From: Nesterenkonia sp. F
Lineage (GTDB): Bacteria > Actinomycetota > Actinomycetes > Actinomycetales > Micrococcaceae
DNA: 40,382 nucleotides
Direction: 5' to 3'
NCBI RefSeq assembly: GCF_000220985.1
Contig: NZ_AFRW01000085.1
Coordinates: forward strand, 1-40,382
The position numbers were made by a program, and so were the translations under genes. Below, in pieces: positions 7,745 to 12,471 of this stretch (positions are counted from its first letter, which is position 1; every line of letters starts with the position of its first letter). The notes under the pieces are model-generated. The model had not been told where the DNA came from. It made no database searches and saw only the letters and a list, made by a program, of their open reading frames with translations.

Positions 7745-8656
7745 TCATCCCTGGCAGCCGGGGCACCAGTACAGCGAGCGCCCCTGCAGCTCGCGCACCG
7801 CCAGCACCGCGCCGCAGCGCAGACAGGGCGTGCCCTGGTGCTGGTAGACCCAGTGGCGCCGGGCCGGGTCGTGGCGCGACGCGTCCTCGGGCCGCAGCGT
7901 GCGGATGACGCCCTCGGCGACGCCGTCGCGCAGCTGGACGCCCAGGCGTCGCCAGAGTGCGGCGACCGATTCCGCGGACAGGTCGGCGGCGGGGAGGCTC
8001 GGGTCCAGCCGCTCCAGGAAGAGCGACTCGGCCCGGTAGATGTTGCCCACGCCGGCGATGATCGACTGATCCATCAACGCCTGGGCGATCGGGATCCTGC
8101 GCCGGGCCAGGCGGCGGGCGAAGGCCTCGAGTCCCGAGGGGCCGCCGTGCGGCCGCCCCTCGTCCGGCGGCGCGGCGTCGGACTGCTCGCGGAGCGGATC
8201 CGGACCCAGCCGGGCGACGACGCGCTCGTACTCCGGCACGCTGAGCACGGCGCAGGTCGCCGGTCCTCGCAGATCGGCCCAGCCGTGCTCGGTGCGGAGG
8301 CGGGCGCGCACCGCACCGCGCGGCGGTTCGGGGATGACCCAGCCGTCCTCGTCGCGACGCACCGTCGGGGGCTCGAGCCGGGCCCGCGGGGCGCCCAGCG
8401 TCGGGGCTCCGGCGAAGTGCTCGTCGCCGCGGAAGCTGACGGCGCCGTAGAGCCCGAGGTGGACCTGCCAGATGTCGGCGCCCAGATGGACGAAGAGCTG
8501 CTTGCCCCAGGCCTCGGCGCGCTGCGGAACGCGTCCGTCGAGCCGCCCCGCCCCGGCGGCGAAGCGTCCCTGGGGCGAGCTGACGCGCCAGAGCCGGCCG
8601 ACGAAGAGATCCTCGATCTGGGCGGCCAGGCGGTGGAGAGTATGACCTTCAGGCAT
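7745..8656 (-). CDS. nei: Fpg/Nei family DNA glycosylase, endonuclease VIII type
   Basis: This base-excision repair enzyme removes oxidised pyrimidines and cuts the abasic site. The start MPEGHTLHRLA carries the catalytic Pro and Glu. MPEGH, rather than MPELPE, is typical of Nei. The helix-two-turn-helix region contains QALMDQSIIAGVGNIYRAESLF. The C-terminal zinc finger is complete, with CLRCG and WCPGC at the very end. Length 303 residues, slightly long owing to a linker around 155-170. It follows rpiB by 21 bases on the same strand, so the two are probably co-transcribed. No strong ribosome site is visible. Confidence 0.93.
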   Translation of the reverse strand: MPEGHTLHRLAAQIEDLFVGRLWRVSSPQGRFAAGAGRLDGRVPQRAEAWGKQLFVHLGADIWQVHLGLYGAVSFRGDEHFAGAPTLGAPRARLEPPTVRRDEDGWVIPEPPRGAVRARLRTEHGWADLRGPATCAVLSVPEYERVVARLGPDPLREQSDAAPPDEGRPHGGPSGLEAFARRLARRRIPIAQALMDQSIIAGVGNIYRAESLFLERLDPSLPAADLSAESVAALWRRLGVQLRDGVAEGVIRTLRPEDASRHDPARRHWVYQHQGTPCLRCGAVLAVRELQGRSLYWCPGCQG

Positions 8657-8677: not shown

Positions 8678-9151
8678 TCAGTCCAGGATCTCGCCGGTGC
8701 GCTCGTAGTGGGCGATCTTCCCGAGGCGCCGCGCGTGGCGCTCCTCCCCGCTCCATGCGGCGCTCAGGAAGGCCTCGACGATCGCGGCGGCCTCCTGCAG
8801 GGAATGCTGGCGGCCGCCCAGACCGACGACGTTGGCGTCGTTGTGCTCGCGCGCCAGACGGGCCGTCTCCAAGTTCCACGCCAGCGCCGCGCGGATGCCG
8901 CGGACCTTGTTGGCGGTGATCTGCTCGCCGTTGCCGGAGCCGCCGAGCACGATGCCCAGCGCCTCCCGCCCCTCGGCCTGCTCGGCGGCCACCGCCTCGG
9001 CGGCGCGGAAGCAGTAGGCGGGATAGTCGTCCTCGGCGTCGTAGACCTCGGGGCCGTGGTCGACCATCTCGTAGCCCCGATCCGCCAGGTGCTTCACCAG
9101 GTGGGCGGAGAGCTCCATGCCGGCGTGGTCGGTGGCGATGTGGACGCGCAT
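8678..9151 (-). CDS. rpiB: Ribose-5-phosphate isomerase B
   Basis: RpiB interconverts ribose 5-phosphate and ribulose 5-phosphate in the pentose phosphate pathway. The 157-residue protein begins MRVHIATDHAGMELSAHL and has GIVLGGSGNGEQITANKV and REHNDANVVGLGGRQ. The active-site loop has Glu in GSGNGEQ, where E. coli RpiB has Cys nearby. This is the actinobacterial (mycobacterial-type) variant. AGAGGAA lies upstream of the ATG. It heads a short rpiB-nei unit and shares its upstream region with the divergent OsmC-globin gene. Confidence 0.95.
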   Translation of the reverse strand: MRVHIATDHAGMELSAHLVKHLADRGYEMVDHGPEVYDAEDDYPAYCFRAAEAVAAEQAEGREALGIVLGGSGNGEQITANKVRGIRAALAWNLETARLAREHNDANVVGLGGRQHSLQEAAAIVEAFLSAAWSGEERHARRLGKIAHYERTGEILD

Positions 9152-9355: not shown

Positions 9356-10633
9356 ATGGACATCCAGCAGCACACGTTCGCCGTGGAGGTCAGCTGGTCG
9401 GATCCCGCCGGCACCGCCGACCCGCGCGGCTACACCCGCGAGCACACGGTCCGCACGGTGCTCGCGCCGCGCGAGGTCGAGCGCGGACTGCGCGCTCCGG
9501 AGCCGCTGACCGGCTCGGCGGCGCGTGCCTTCCACGGCGACGCCGAGCAGTGGAATCCCGAGCAGCTGCTGCTGGCCTCGCTGGCGCAGTGTCACGCCTT
9601 GTCATATCTGCACGCCGCCGCGGAGGCCTCGCTGGTCGTCACCTCGCTGACCGTCTCCGGCTCGGCCGAGCTGCGGATGGAGCCCGACGGTGGCGGGCGG
9701 ATCACCGGCGCGGTGCTGCGCCCGACCGTGGAGCTGGTCGACGAGTCCCGCCGCGAGGAGGCCGACGCGCTGCACGTCATCGCCGCCGAGCGTTGCGTGA
9801 TCGCCCGCAGCGTCGACTTCCCGGTCACCCACGAGCCGGTGACGCCTGCGTCGCAGACGTCGCAGCGCGCGGCGTCGGAGAGCGCGGCCGACGACCAGCA
9901 GCTGCCGACCTTCTCCCGCCGGCTGGGCGCGCCGATCGCCACGCTGGCCCCGGTCGGCAAGCCGCCCTCGCAGGTCACCGGCCTGCCCGAGCGCGGCCAG
10001 GACGCGGGCGCCCGACGCCGGGGCGCCGAGCACGAGCAGCAGACACGACAGGGAGGATCCACCGTGGCCGACGACGACCGCCGCAGCGACGAGCAGGACG
10101 CCGAGGCCGCCCCGGGCCCGTCGAGCACGACCGGCGCGACGGGCTCCTCCGCCGACCTGGGATATCTCCCCCCGCCCGGCGGCGGGCCCGGACCTCAGCC
10201 GATCCGCCCGACGGCGCCGGCGCGCTCCGCGGAGCCGGCGTCGTCGGGGACGCCCGGCGGCGAGCAGCAGACCTTCTACGAGGCCGTCGGCGGGCACGAG
10301 ACCTTCGTCCGCATCGTCGACGTCTTCTACGAGCAGGTGGCCGAGGACCCGGACTTCCGCGCGCTCTATCCCGAGGAGGACCTCGAGCCGGCCAAGCGGC
10401 GGCTGCTGATGTTCCTCGAGCAGTACTGGGGCGGGCCGCGGACGTACCAGGAGGAGCGCGGCCATCCGCGGCTGCGGATGCGCCACATGCCCTTCCGCGT
10501 CGACGCCGCCGCCCGCGACACCTGGCTGCGCTATATGCGCCGCGCCGTCGACGCCGCCGAGCTCTCGCCGCTGCACGACGAGATCCTCTGGGACTACCTC
10601 TCCCGGGCGGCGCATTCGATGGTCAACAGCTGA
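9356..10633 (+). CDS. OsmC-truncated haemoglobin (group II) fusion protein
   Basis: One 425-residue frame carries two domains. Residues 1-162 are an OsmC-type thiol peroxidase with [20 protein letters not shown] (Cys79) and [17 protein letters not shown] (Cys147), the two redox cysteines. Residues 163-304 are a low-complexity, proline- and acid-rich linker. Residues 305-425 are a trHbO-type globin: Tyr325 (B10), Tyr338 (CD1), [13 protein letters not shown] with proximal His377, and Trp390 (G8). The ATG at 9356 has GAGGAGA upstream. A second good ribosome site (GGGAGG at 10051) precedes an in-frame GTG at 10064, codon 237, so the globin may also be made alone as a 189-residue protein. Separate genes joined by loss of a stop, or a base error in the linker, are alternatives. 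Confidence 0.88.
10051..10066 (+). promoter_or_regulatory. Internal ribosome binding site and GTG start for the globin part
   Basis: GGGAGG, seven bases, then GTG (10064-10066), in frame inside the OsmC-globin reading frame. The spacing is ideal. This looks like the original start of a stand-alone globin gene, whose N-terminus would read [14 protein letters not shown]. Confidence 0.6.
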
Positions 10634-10684
10634 GCCGACGCGCTGCAGGAATCAGCCGGGATCAGTCGGGACCGGCCGGCTCAG
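10630..10684. terminator. Possible terminator between the OsmC-globin gene and the downstream convergent gene
   Basis: CTGAGCCG (10630-10637) and its reverse complement CGGCTCAG (10677-10684) bracket the 47-base gap and contain the stop codons of both convergent genes. The loop is long (39 bases), so the termination function is weakly supported. Confidence 0.3.
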
Positions 10685-11361
10685 AGGCCGCCGGAGGTCC
10701 GGCAGAGCACGAAGCCGCCGGCCGAGGACAGCCGCACCCAGCGGCCCAGCCGGTGGACCGCCGTGGTGCCGCCGGCACCGCGGGCGGCGAGGAAGCCCAG
10801 CGCGTGGGCGCCGAAGGCCGCCCCGGCCGGCACCTCGACATCCGCGACGGCGTCCTGCGGGCCGGGCTCCAAGACCCGGCCCCACACGCGCTCGCGAACC
10901 TGCTCGACCACCGACGCGCCGGCGGTGTCGGGGACGACGTCGGTGATCTCGGAGACTCCGGACTCGGCGGCGTCGCGGACGGTGTCGTCGGACAGCTCGC
11001 CGGCCGGCTCCCAGCCCGAGCGCGGCGGGGTCACCGCCGCCCAGGGCACCGTCATCCGACTCGGCGGCAGGGGAAGCTCGACGTCGGCCGGATCCAGGCG
11101 GGCGATCCGCTCGGTGACCGCGTTGAGCTCGACGGTGACGTCGGCTTCGGAGGCCTCGGCCAGCGCCATGGTCCGCAGCCCCAGCACCGCCGGCAGACGG
11201 CCGACCAGCGAGCTGGGCGTCATCACCGGCACCCAGGCGGCCAGCGCCGACCCGACCGCCTGCAGGCGGATCCCCTGCTCCTGGATGCGGCGGGCCCGGC
11301 CCACATAGGTCGACAGATCCTGCAGGGAGACGGCTTCGGCGAATCGCAGCGCTTCGGTCAT
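10681..11361 (-). CDS. Conserved hypothetical protein next to tesB
   Basis: A 226-residue soluble protein starting MTEALRFAEAVSLQDLSTYVGRARRIQ. I do not recognise a named domain. It has no signal peptide or clear membrane segment. It is rich in Ala, Val and Glu, with a basic, hydrophobic first third (IRLQAVGSALAAWVPVMTPSSL) and a C-terminus ending WVRLSSAGGFVLCRTSGGL. The ATG at 11361 has no Shine-Dalgarno sequence. CAGAAT lies seven bases upstream on the minus strand and could serve as a -10 box for a leaderless mRNA. It is divergent from tesB, with only 75 bases between the starts, and convergent with the OsmC-globin gene. The codon pattern is ordinary for the region, so I believe it is a real gene of unknown function. 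Confidence 0.8.
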   Translation of the reverse strand: MTEALRFAEAVSLQDLSTYVGRARRIQEQGIRLQAVGSALAAWVPVMTPSSLVGRLPAVLGLRTMALAEASEADVTVELNAVTERIARLDPADVELPLPPSRMTVPWAAVTPPRSGWEPAGELSDDTVRDAAESGVSEITDVVPDTAGASVVEQVRERVWGRVLEPGPQDAVADVEVPAGAAFGAHALGFLAARGAGGTTAVHRLGRWVRLSSAGGFVLCRTSGGL

Positions 11362-11436: not shown

Positions 11437-12471
11437 ATGCCCTCCACCCGTTATCAGGTCCCCTCGCCCGACGAGGCCGTCGCCCAGCTGGTGGGGATGC
11501 TGGACCTGGAGGAGCTCGAACCGCTCTCCGGACCGCGCGGCTCCGAGGAGCGCTTCCTCGGGCCGGTCTTCGACCAGGCGTTCTGGCGGGTCTTCGGCGG
11601 CCAGGTCGTCTCGCAGGCGGCGATCGCGGCGATGCGCACCGTCGACCCGGAGCGGGTGATCCACTCGGTCCACGGCTACTTCCTGCGGCCCGGCGATGCG
11701 ACCCAGCCGATCGAGATCGCCGTGGAGCGGCTGCGCGACGGCGGATCCTTCTCCGCCCGCCGCAGCCAGGCCTATCAGGGCGGCAAGCCCATCCTGTCGA
11801 TGATCGCCTCCTTCCAACGACCCTCTCCCGGTCCGTCGCATCAGCGGGAGATGCCCGGCCACATCCCGGATCCCGACCAGCTGCCGACTCCCGACGAGCT
11901 GGTCGGCCACGTCGACCATCCGGTCATGCAGGAGTGGGCGCGAGGCCGCCCCTTCGAGATCCGCCATGTGGACCGGCCGGTGTACCTCGACTCCGACCGG
12001 GCCCCGCGGGCGGCGAACGCCGTATGGATGCGGGCGAAGGCCCCGCTGCCCGACGACCGCCGCCTGCACCGCGCCGCGATCCTCTACGCCTCCGACTACA
12101 CGCTGCTCGAGCCCATCCTGCGCCGCCACGGGCTCTACTGGGCCAAGCCCGGGATCAAAGTCGCCTCGCTGGACCACGCGATGTGGTGGCACCGCGAGGC
12201 ACGTGCCGACGAGTGGCTGCTCTACGTCCAGCAGAGCCCCAGCGCGCAGAGCGCCCGGGGGCTGGCGACCGGCTCCATCTACAACCGCGACGGCGCGCTG
12301 ATCGCCTCGGTGGCCCAGGAGGGCATGGTGCGCCGCCCGCACGGGCTGAAGCCCCGGGTCCGCGAGCGGCTGCAGCGGTCGATGACCCGGAGCTCGGCGG
12401 TGCAGCGGCGCCTGGACCAGCAGTACGGGCCGATCTGGGACGCCCGTGCCGCCCACGAACCGCTGGAGTGA
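11437..12471 (+). CDS. tesB: Acyl-CoA thioesterase II
   Basis: TesB hydrolyses medium- and long-chain acyl-CoA to free fatty acid and CoA. The 344-residue protein is a double hotdog of normal length. The N-terminal half has FGGQVVSQAAIAAMRTV and HSVHGYFLRPGD. The C-terminal half has ILYASDYTLLEP (catalytic Asp), SLDHAMWWHR and SARGLATGSIYNRDGALIASVAQEGMVR, with the conserved Gln of AQEG. The ATG at 11437 has GGAAGGA seven bases upstream. It is a lone gene, divergent from the hypothetical protein. A beta-oxidation gene (fadB) lies far away at the end of the window. Confidence 0.94.
   Translation: MPSTRYQVPSPDEAVAQLVGMLDLEELEPLSGPRGSEERFLGPVFDQAFWRVFGGQVVSQAAIAAMRTVDPERVIHSVHGYFLRPGDATQPIEIAVERLRDGGSFSARRSQAYQGGKPILSMIASFQRPSPGPSHQREMPGHIPDPDQLPTPDELVGHVDHPVMQEWARGRPFEIRHVDRPVYLDSDRAPRAANAVWMRAKAPLPDDRRLHRAAILYASDYTLLEPILRRHGLYWAKPGIKVASLDHAMWWHREARADEWLLYVQQSPSAQSARGLATGSIYNRDGALIASVAQEGMVRRPHGLKPRVRERLQRSMTRSSAVQRRLDQQYGPIWDARAAHEPLE

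Follow-up and report, generated by a model that had tools for sequence, protein, structure and literature searches.

A single gene of Nesterenkonia sp. F joins an OsmC domain to a complete group II truncated haemoglobin (trHbO) through a linker that carries a conserved motif of 27 residues, and the same architecture recurs in related genera. The fusion is confirmed as real. Taken as a whole, we read its product, with slightly better than even confidence, as one two-domain protein in which an OsmC-type thiol-peroxidase domain is tied by a flexible linker to trHbO and which would act in defence against peroxides and reactive oxygen. The sequence-based part of this reading comprises the single frame, both domains, the active-site and haem-pocket residues, the motif and the proximity of the two genes in the family. 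Throughout, the window is the whole stretch of DNA analysed (40,382 nucleotides); codes g2 to g32 stand for genera of the family, G for genomes and L for loci.

An OsmC domain and a truncated haemoglobin in one frame

As the earlier note had described, the frame is open without a break from the ATG at 9356 to the TGA at 10633. The gene and its two domains are:

9356..10633, forward strand: fused OsmC–linker–truncated globin ORF, 425 aa, ATG start, GAGGAG upstream
9536..9832, forward strand: OsmC domain, residues 61-159 by Pfam, with Glu69, Cys79 and Cys147
10271..10627, forward strand: group II truncated haemoglobin domain, residues 306-424, with Tyr325, Tyr338, His377 and Trp390

Pfam recognises OsmC at residues 61-159 (E 8e-15; 55.5 bits, above the gathering score of 27.5) and Bac_globin at residues 306-424 (E 1.7e-35; 122.3 bits for a cut-off of 21), the latter along the entire profile (1-121 of 121). 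The OsmC gathering score was also passed by all eight relatives scanned, these being 8 of the 33 other fusions. An AF2 model of the fused protein (pTM 0.50) consists of two confident domains and a disordered linker, with OsmC folded from about residue 1 to 160 and low confidence from about 170 to 292.

Tyr325, Tyr338, Trp390 and His377, which we take to be the equivalents of TyrB10, TyrCD1, TrpG8 and the proximal HisF8, are kept in all 34 fused rows. Cys79 and Cys147, presumably the redox cysteines, and Glu69, by its role presumably the glutamate of the OsmC superfamily, are kept in 33 of the 34, across seven genera; the exception is L006, from genome G013. Cysteines of OsmC domains feature in PMC5113044 as well. 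The Pfam matches and these residues bear out the earlier assignment of a full OsmC domain with both cysteines and a full group II truncated haemoglobin with its two tyrosines, histidine and tryptophan.

In Foldseek searches the globin half was matched to the trHbO structures 4uzv, 2bmm and 1ngk (58-62% identity), and the OsmC half to VCA0330 (2d7v, the best solved sequence match) and to E. coli OsmC. The likeness to trHbO such as M. tuberculosis HbO (1ngk) and the T. fusca globin (2bmm) covers the complete domain and the pocket residues; 4uzv, entitled a triple mutant of the T. fusca globin, has Phe at the sites of Tyr325, Tyr338 and Trp390 in the sequence alignment. The solved trHbO chains stand alone, whereas the fused protein adds an OsmC domain and the linker motif. 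With the OsmC/Ohr superfamily, represented by VCA0330, it shares the OsmC fold, Glu69, Cys79 and Cys147, but it is joined to a haem protein and the OsmC half of the window protein reaches none of the named OsmC/Ohr subfamily cut-offs of NCBIfam (OsmC, 25.5 of 85.8 bits; Ohr, 20.0 of 88.85; SACOL1771, 23.5 of 166.15).

These subfamily scores also bear on a reading in which the OsmC part is no peroxidase but a module for dimerisation or ligand binding. Two further observations point the same way: G013 retains a trimmed domain that lacks the cysteines, and the fused OsmC domain of EstRM, according to PMC5113044, has the cysteines and yet no significant peroxidase activity in a FOX assay. We nevertheless consider such a module unlikely, both cysteines and the glutamate being kept in all fused rows but one in seven genera. 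Removal of organic peroxides is a plausible putative activity of the OsmC part.

The fusion recurs in six genera of one family

OsmC, the linker motif and the globin were found in one frame in 33 genomes of six genera, all in one family, the Micrococcaceae, and with the window's genome counted: four in Nesterenkonia, eight in g4, 11 in g14, eight in g21 and one each in g2 and g16. A match is present in 29 of the 30 Nesterenkonia genomes searched and the motif in 28; the two genomes without it are G028, in which a contig end truncates the globin, and G008, which gave no match. Four of the 28 are fusions (G000, G001, G013 and G029), and in the remaining 24 the globin has no OsmC in frame. Outside Nesterenkonia, all 29 motif-bearing genomes among the 395 family genomes searched are fused, the architecture having been read in each motif-bearing genome fetched from g4, g21, g14, g2 and g16. 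The loci fetched from other genera carry OsmC and globin as separate genes or no visible OsmC, with the exception of L126. Relatives do not always keep two genes: these 33 one-frame genomes, together with the motif-less fusion of L126, support the bifunctional fusion that the earlier note had proposed.

That an assembly or sequencing artefact erased an OsmC stop is almost certainly wrong. Only the draft state of G000 (138 contigs) would favour it; the one-frame architecture is seen in 33 genomes, among them the single-contig genomes G029, G030 and G148, and we rejected the artefact on the strength of the 32 other one-frame genomes.

Two further candidates for fusion were discarded. Open frames in the family sample had suggested g12 as fused, and the three g12 loci read show separate genes. 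In G298 (match 101-425) the upstream part has no OsmC by eye, and a GTG a few residues ahead of the globin could serve as its start. In the g12 globins L179, L180 and L181 the sequence is QYFGGP, against QYWGGP in each of the 37 rows of alignment A3.

The linker carries a conserved motif

A linker of 140 low-complexity residues had been described in the earlier note. The linker is indeed present (residues 163-304), but it is not uniform, residues 183-209 being conserved:

9902..9982, forward strand: conserved linker motif of 27 residues (183-209), common to unfused Nesterenkonia globins and to the fusions of five other genera

The motif follows the pattern LPxFSxRLGAPIAxLxP..K.PSQVTG, which is matched in all 33 motif-bearing fusions. 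Unfused Nesterenkonia globins keep it some 7 to 29 residues after an ATG, as judged by eye. A profile (A2) built from 19 segments of the same genera gave 57 strong matches in the 395 family genomes, never more than one to a genome; 28 of them are in Nesterenkonia and 29 in g4, g21, g14, g2 and g16. It also gave two marginal hits in g3, over 18 model positions (E about 6e-4). No second copy was found in the window's own genome, where the best further match had an E of only 1.7, and 295 other genomes of the class yielded just two marginal hits. A loosened pattern, chosen after the fact, occurs in 3 of the 115 tails of separate globins, where shuffled sequences give an expectation of 0.1; there is a weak hint that the motif may be older than the fusion.

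Selection on the motif was estimated by dN/dS. For the three Nesterenkonia fusions compared, the values were 0.096 for the globin, 0.12 for the motif, 0.27 for OsmC and, in the spacer downstream of the motif, 0.47, and seven g4 rows gave the same order of regions. In Nesterenkonia and g4, constraint on the motif almost equals that on the globin. Four g14 rows gave 0.25 for the motif, 0.20 for OsmC, 0.17 for the globin and 0.35 for the spacer; seven g21 rows, with synonymous sites near saturation, gave 0.050, 0.062, 0.031 and 0.115, respectively. In both of these genera the motif thus lies below the spacer and above the globin.

Two AF2 runs (pTM 0.50 and 0.49, with 7 motif-bearing rows per alignment) gave no confident fold for the motif, whose pLDDT was about 27 to 56, and no evidence that the domains touch each other or the motif. 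The motif would most likely belong to the globin half and serve as a docking peptide for a partner. That it is retained where OsmC is gone points to a further partner of the globin.

An internal start at GTG 10064 is not conserved

According to the earlier note, the gene could make two products, the fusion and a free globin of 189 residues initiated within the linker:

10051..10066, forward strand: GGGAGG (10051-10056) and in-frame GTG, proposed internal start, not conserved at this place

GGGAGG does stand seven bases ahead of the in-frame GTG at 10064, and the Shine-Dalgarno (SD) duplex energy calculated there (-11.7 kcal/mol) is stronger than that at the ATG of the ORF (-7.5). SD-like sites as strong as this one are not rare: within six window ORFs, 3 of the 112 internal codons of start type (10064 and two others) reach this value, as do 32 of the 2007 ATG or GTG triplets on both strands of the window. 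The measure separates poorly, since the assigned starts of the six ORFs span -10.2 to -1.6 kcal/mol. The 32 other motif-bearing fusions scanned (27 + 5) all lack this site at the corresponding position. GTG 10064 lies downstream of the motif, in the variable spacer, and a product started there would therefore lack the motif. We rejected 10064 as a conserved feature: its place is not conserved and its strength is not unusual among internal codons.

Start-type codons do occur in the spacer of g14 fusions, at another place. They are present in 5 of 11 rows (L121, L122, L124, L125 and L176), at +32/+33 from RLGAP and with energies of -8.0 to -14.2 kcal/mol, and are preceded by G-rich, SD-like coding stretches; these count in favour of dual products. 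We also considered a start immediately before the motif. An ATG stands nine codons ahead of RLGAP in 5 of 8 g4, 7 of 8 g21 and 2 of 11 g14 rows. Among these 14, L113 and L117 reach -10 kcal/mol and the other 12 are weak (-5.8 to +0.8), so that such a start was discarded as a general second start. A conserved dual product finds no support in the comparison. We regard dual products from 10064 as improbable, although this species or g14 may yet have a second product.

OsmC and globin genes tend to be neighbours in the family

The neighbourhood was surveyed in a sample of 72 family genomes, 11 of them fused. Both an OsmC and a globin match were present in 61, and in 56 of these the OsmC match begins upstream on the same strand within 3 kb (in 59, within 8 kb). 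Eleven of the 56 are fusions, the window's genome included, so that 45 of the 50 unfused genomes with both matches have this arrangement. Separate OsmC and globin genes tend to stay neighbours in the family. Outside it, no OsmC and globin matches lay within 8 kb on one contig in the lists, read by eye, of 104 order-level and 106 class-level genomes; the closest distances seen were about 37 and 40 kb, in G357 and G342 of the class-level list. The order-level survey took in 119 genomes, of which 113 were listed (9 in the family) and 6 had no match; the class-level survey took in 108, 106 of them outside the family, and five genomes are common to both. Divergent OsmC proteins above E 0.001 would escape these surveys.

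This arrangement bears on a reading in which the fusion is a tightened operon without shared chemistry: neighbours were fused, which merely fixes a 1:1 ratio, and the globin does not use OsmC. With genes that already adjoin, as in those 45 unfused genomes, fusion takes little beyond the loss of a stop. OsmC is moreover gone or reduced in most Nesterenkonia, and in the AF2 model the domains are joined by a disordered linker. On the other hand, a kept neighbourhood and a second, motif-less fusion are as a rule signs of a functional link, and active-site residues are kept in all but one of the fused rows. Tightening alone is to our mind possible and falls short of probable.

Two Arthrobacter-type loci were read gene by gene. 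An aminopeptidase-like gene (by eye) comes first, then OsmC, an MscS-type channel and the globin. The channel is at 3527-4195 in L038 (Pfam) and at 2211-2909 in L046 (by eye), and L046 has an extra opposite-strand gene between OsmC and the channel. The channel may be part of one unit with OsmC and globin.

Upstream of the fused gene in the window, two neighbours recur near the globin in the other Nesterenkonia loci that reach them:

8678..9151, reverse strand: rpiB-like gene (PF02502), divergent neighbour, beside the globin in those loci
7745..8656, reverse strand: Fpg/Nei-type DNA glycosylase gene, near the globin in those loci

Downstream, a gene at 10681-11361 on the reverse strand converges on the fused gene and encodes a protein of 226 residues with no family assigned. 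By in-frame tblastn it has relatives in 58 of 74 non-Nesterenkonia loci, among them all 48 that have OsmC, and with few exceptions these relatives and the globin lie on different strands; a Pfam scan of the L038 copy gave no match. It is followed at 11437-12471, forward strand, by a TesB-type acyl-CoA thioesterase, a relative of which is present in 67 of the 74 non-Nesterenkonia globin loci (in-frame tblastn).

Probable origin and losses of the fusion

In the OsmC tree, from which the long-branched L162 and 5 further rows were left out, a branch supported at 97/91 sets the domains of 28 motif-bearing fusions apart from the others; this is consistent with a single fusion event, provided that the root falls outside these 28. 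In the globin tree, a quick tree of 87 rows and 123 columns, 35 of whose 84 inner branches are open, the fused label requires 7 changes, at least 4 of them forced by starred branches, and the motif-bearing genera fall into more than one group. This tree scatters the four Nesterenkonia fusions, and 3 changes are needed to account for the unfused rows. When Nei, RpiB and globin were concatenated (27 rows), the 23 unfused Nesterenkonia came out on one side with support of 48/56; a single loss of OsmC in Nesterenkonia is possible. The motif-bearing fusion most likely arose once, from adjoining genes, and the OsmC half would later have been lost in most Nesterenkonia.

L126, from the draft genome G133 of g20, is an OsmC–globin fusion without the motif and with a spacer of about 18 residues. 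Its OsmC groups among separate OsmC genes. In its g20 relatives L127, L128 and L130 OsmC is a separate gene that ends 1, 112 and 14 bases, respectively, ahead of the globin match, and L129 has no OsmC visible in the fetched stretch. L126 seems to be a second, independent fusion, known from this one draft genome.

In L006 (G013, 931-1923) other residues stand in place of Glu69, Cys79 and Cys147 and OsmC is incomplete on its N-terminal side, the globin half being intact; Pfam still recognises the OsmC half (31.7 bits), which may be a decaying or a repurposed domain. The unfused globin gene of the Nesterenkonia genome G015 (62% complete) contains an internal TAA. The pairing of OsmC and globin is not indispensable, since 24 of 28 motif-bearing Nesterenkonia genomes have no in-frame OsmC and the OsmC of G013 is without its key residues.

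Proposed function of the fused protein

The kept neighbourhood, the spread of the fusion, the second fusion and the kept active sites argue for one shared process. Solved OsmC/Ohr proteins are dimers. Were the OsmC domains of the fusion dimeric as well, each dimer would bear two tethered haem domains beside two Cys-Cys peroxide sites. OsmC would clear hydroperoxides (organic, perhaps lipid) close to the haem and might feed thiol reducing power to it, the fused unit serving peroxide and reactive-oxygen defence. Such defence is our best guess because a group II globin, that of Roseobacter denitrificans, has peroxidase activity according to PMC4319818 and because E. coli OsmC metabolises peroxides, as PMC5113044 states. 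Against the reading as a whole stand the scores below the NCBIfam subfamily cut-offs, the EstRM domain with its cysteines but no significant peroxidase activity, the dispensability of OsmC in most Nesterenkonia, a globin tree without a single fused group and AF2 models that show no contact of the domains.

A bolder version would make the OsmC thiol peroxidase the redox partner of trHbO in this family. The fusion would be a haem/thiol enzyme complete in itself, with the OsmC dithiol re-reducing or protecting the haem and the motif docking a shared electron donor, and elsewhere in the family the same pair would act as two neighbouring gene products. We think this version quite unlikely.

OsmC fusions (with an esterase) and truncated-globin fusions (with a nitrate reductase) are known kinds. 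The OsmC-esterase fusions of the EstRM family (PMC5113044) likewise join OsmC to another enzyme, but with OsmC placed C-terminally and with a hydrolase in place of a haem protein. In the alga Heterosigma akashiwo, NR2-2/2HbN (PMC3820574) likewise joins a truncated globin to a redox enzyme, but it differs in being algal, in its HbN-type globin and in having nitrate reductase as the partner. Among the open-licence papers listed in literature searches, none concerned an OsmC–globin fusion; the pair may stand in protein databases or architecture tables without comment.

A joined gene that recurs in related genera hints that both of its parts work together. To our knowledge, the physiological reductant of group II truncated haemoglobins is not settled, nor is their task. 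The kept neighbourhood, the motif-bearing fusion of six genera and the motif-less fusion name a concrete partner for trHbO, an OsmC-type protein, and the fusion offers a one-chain protein in which their coupling can be assayed.
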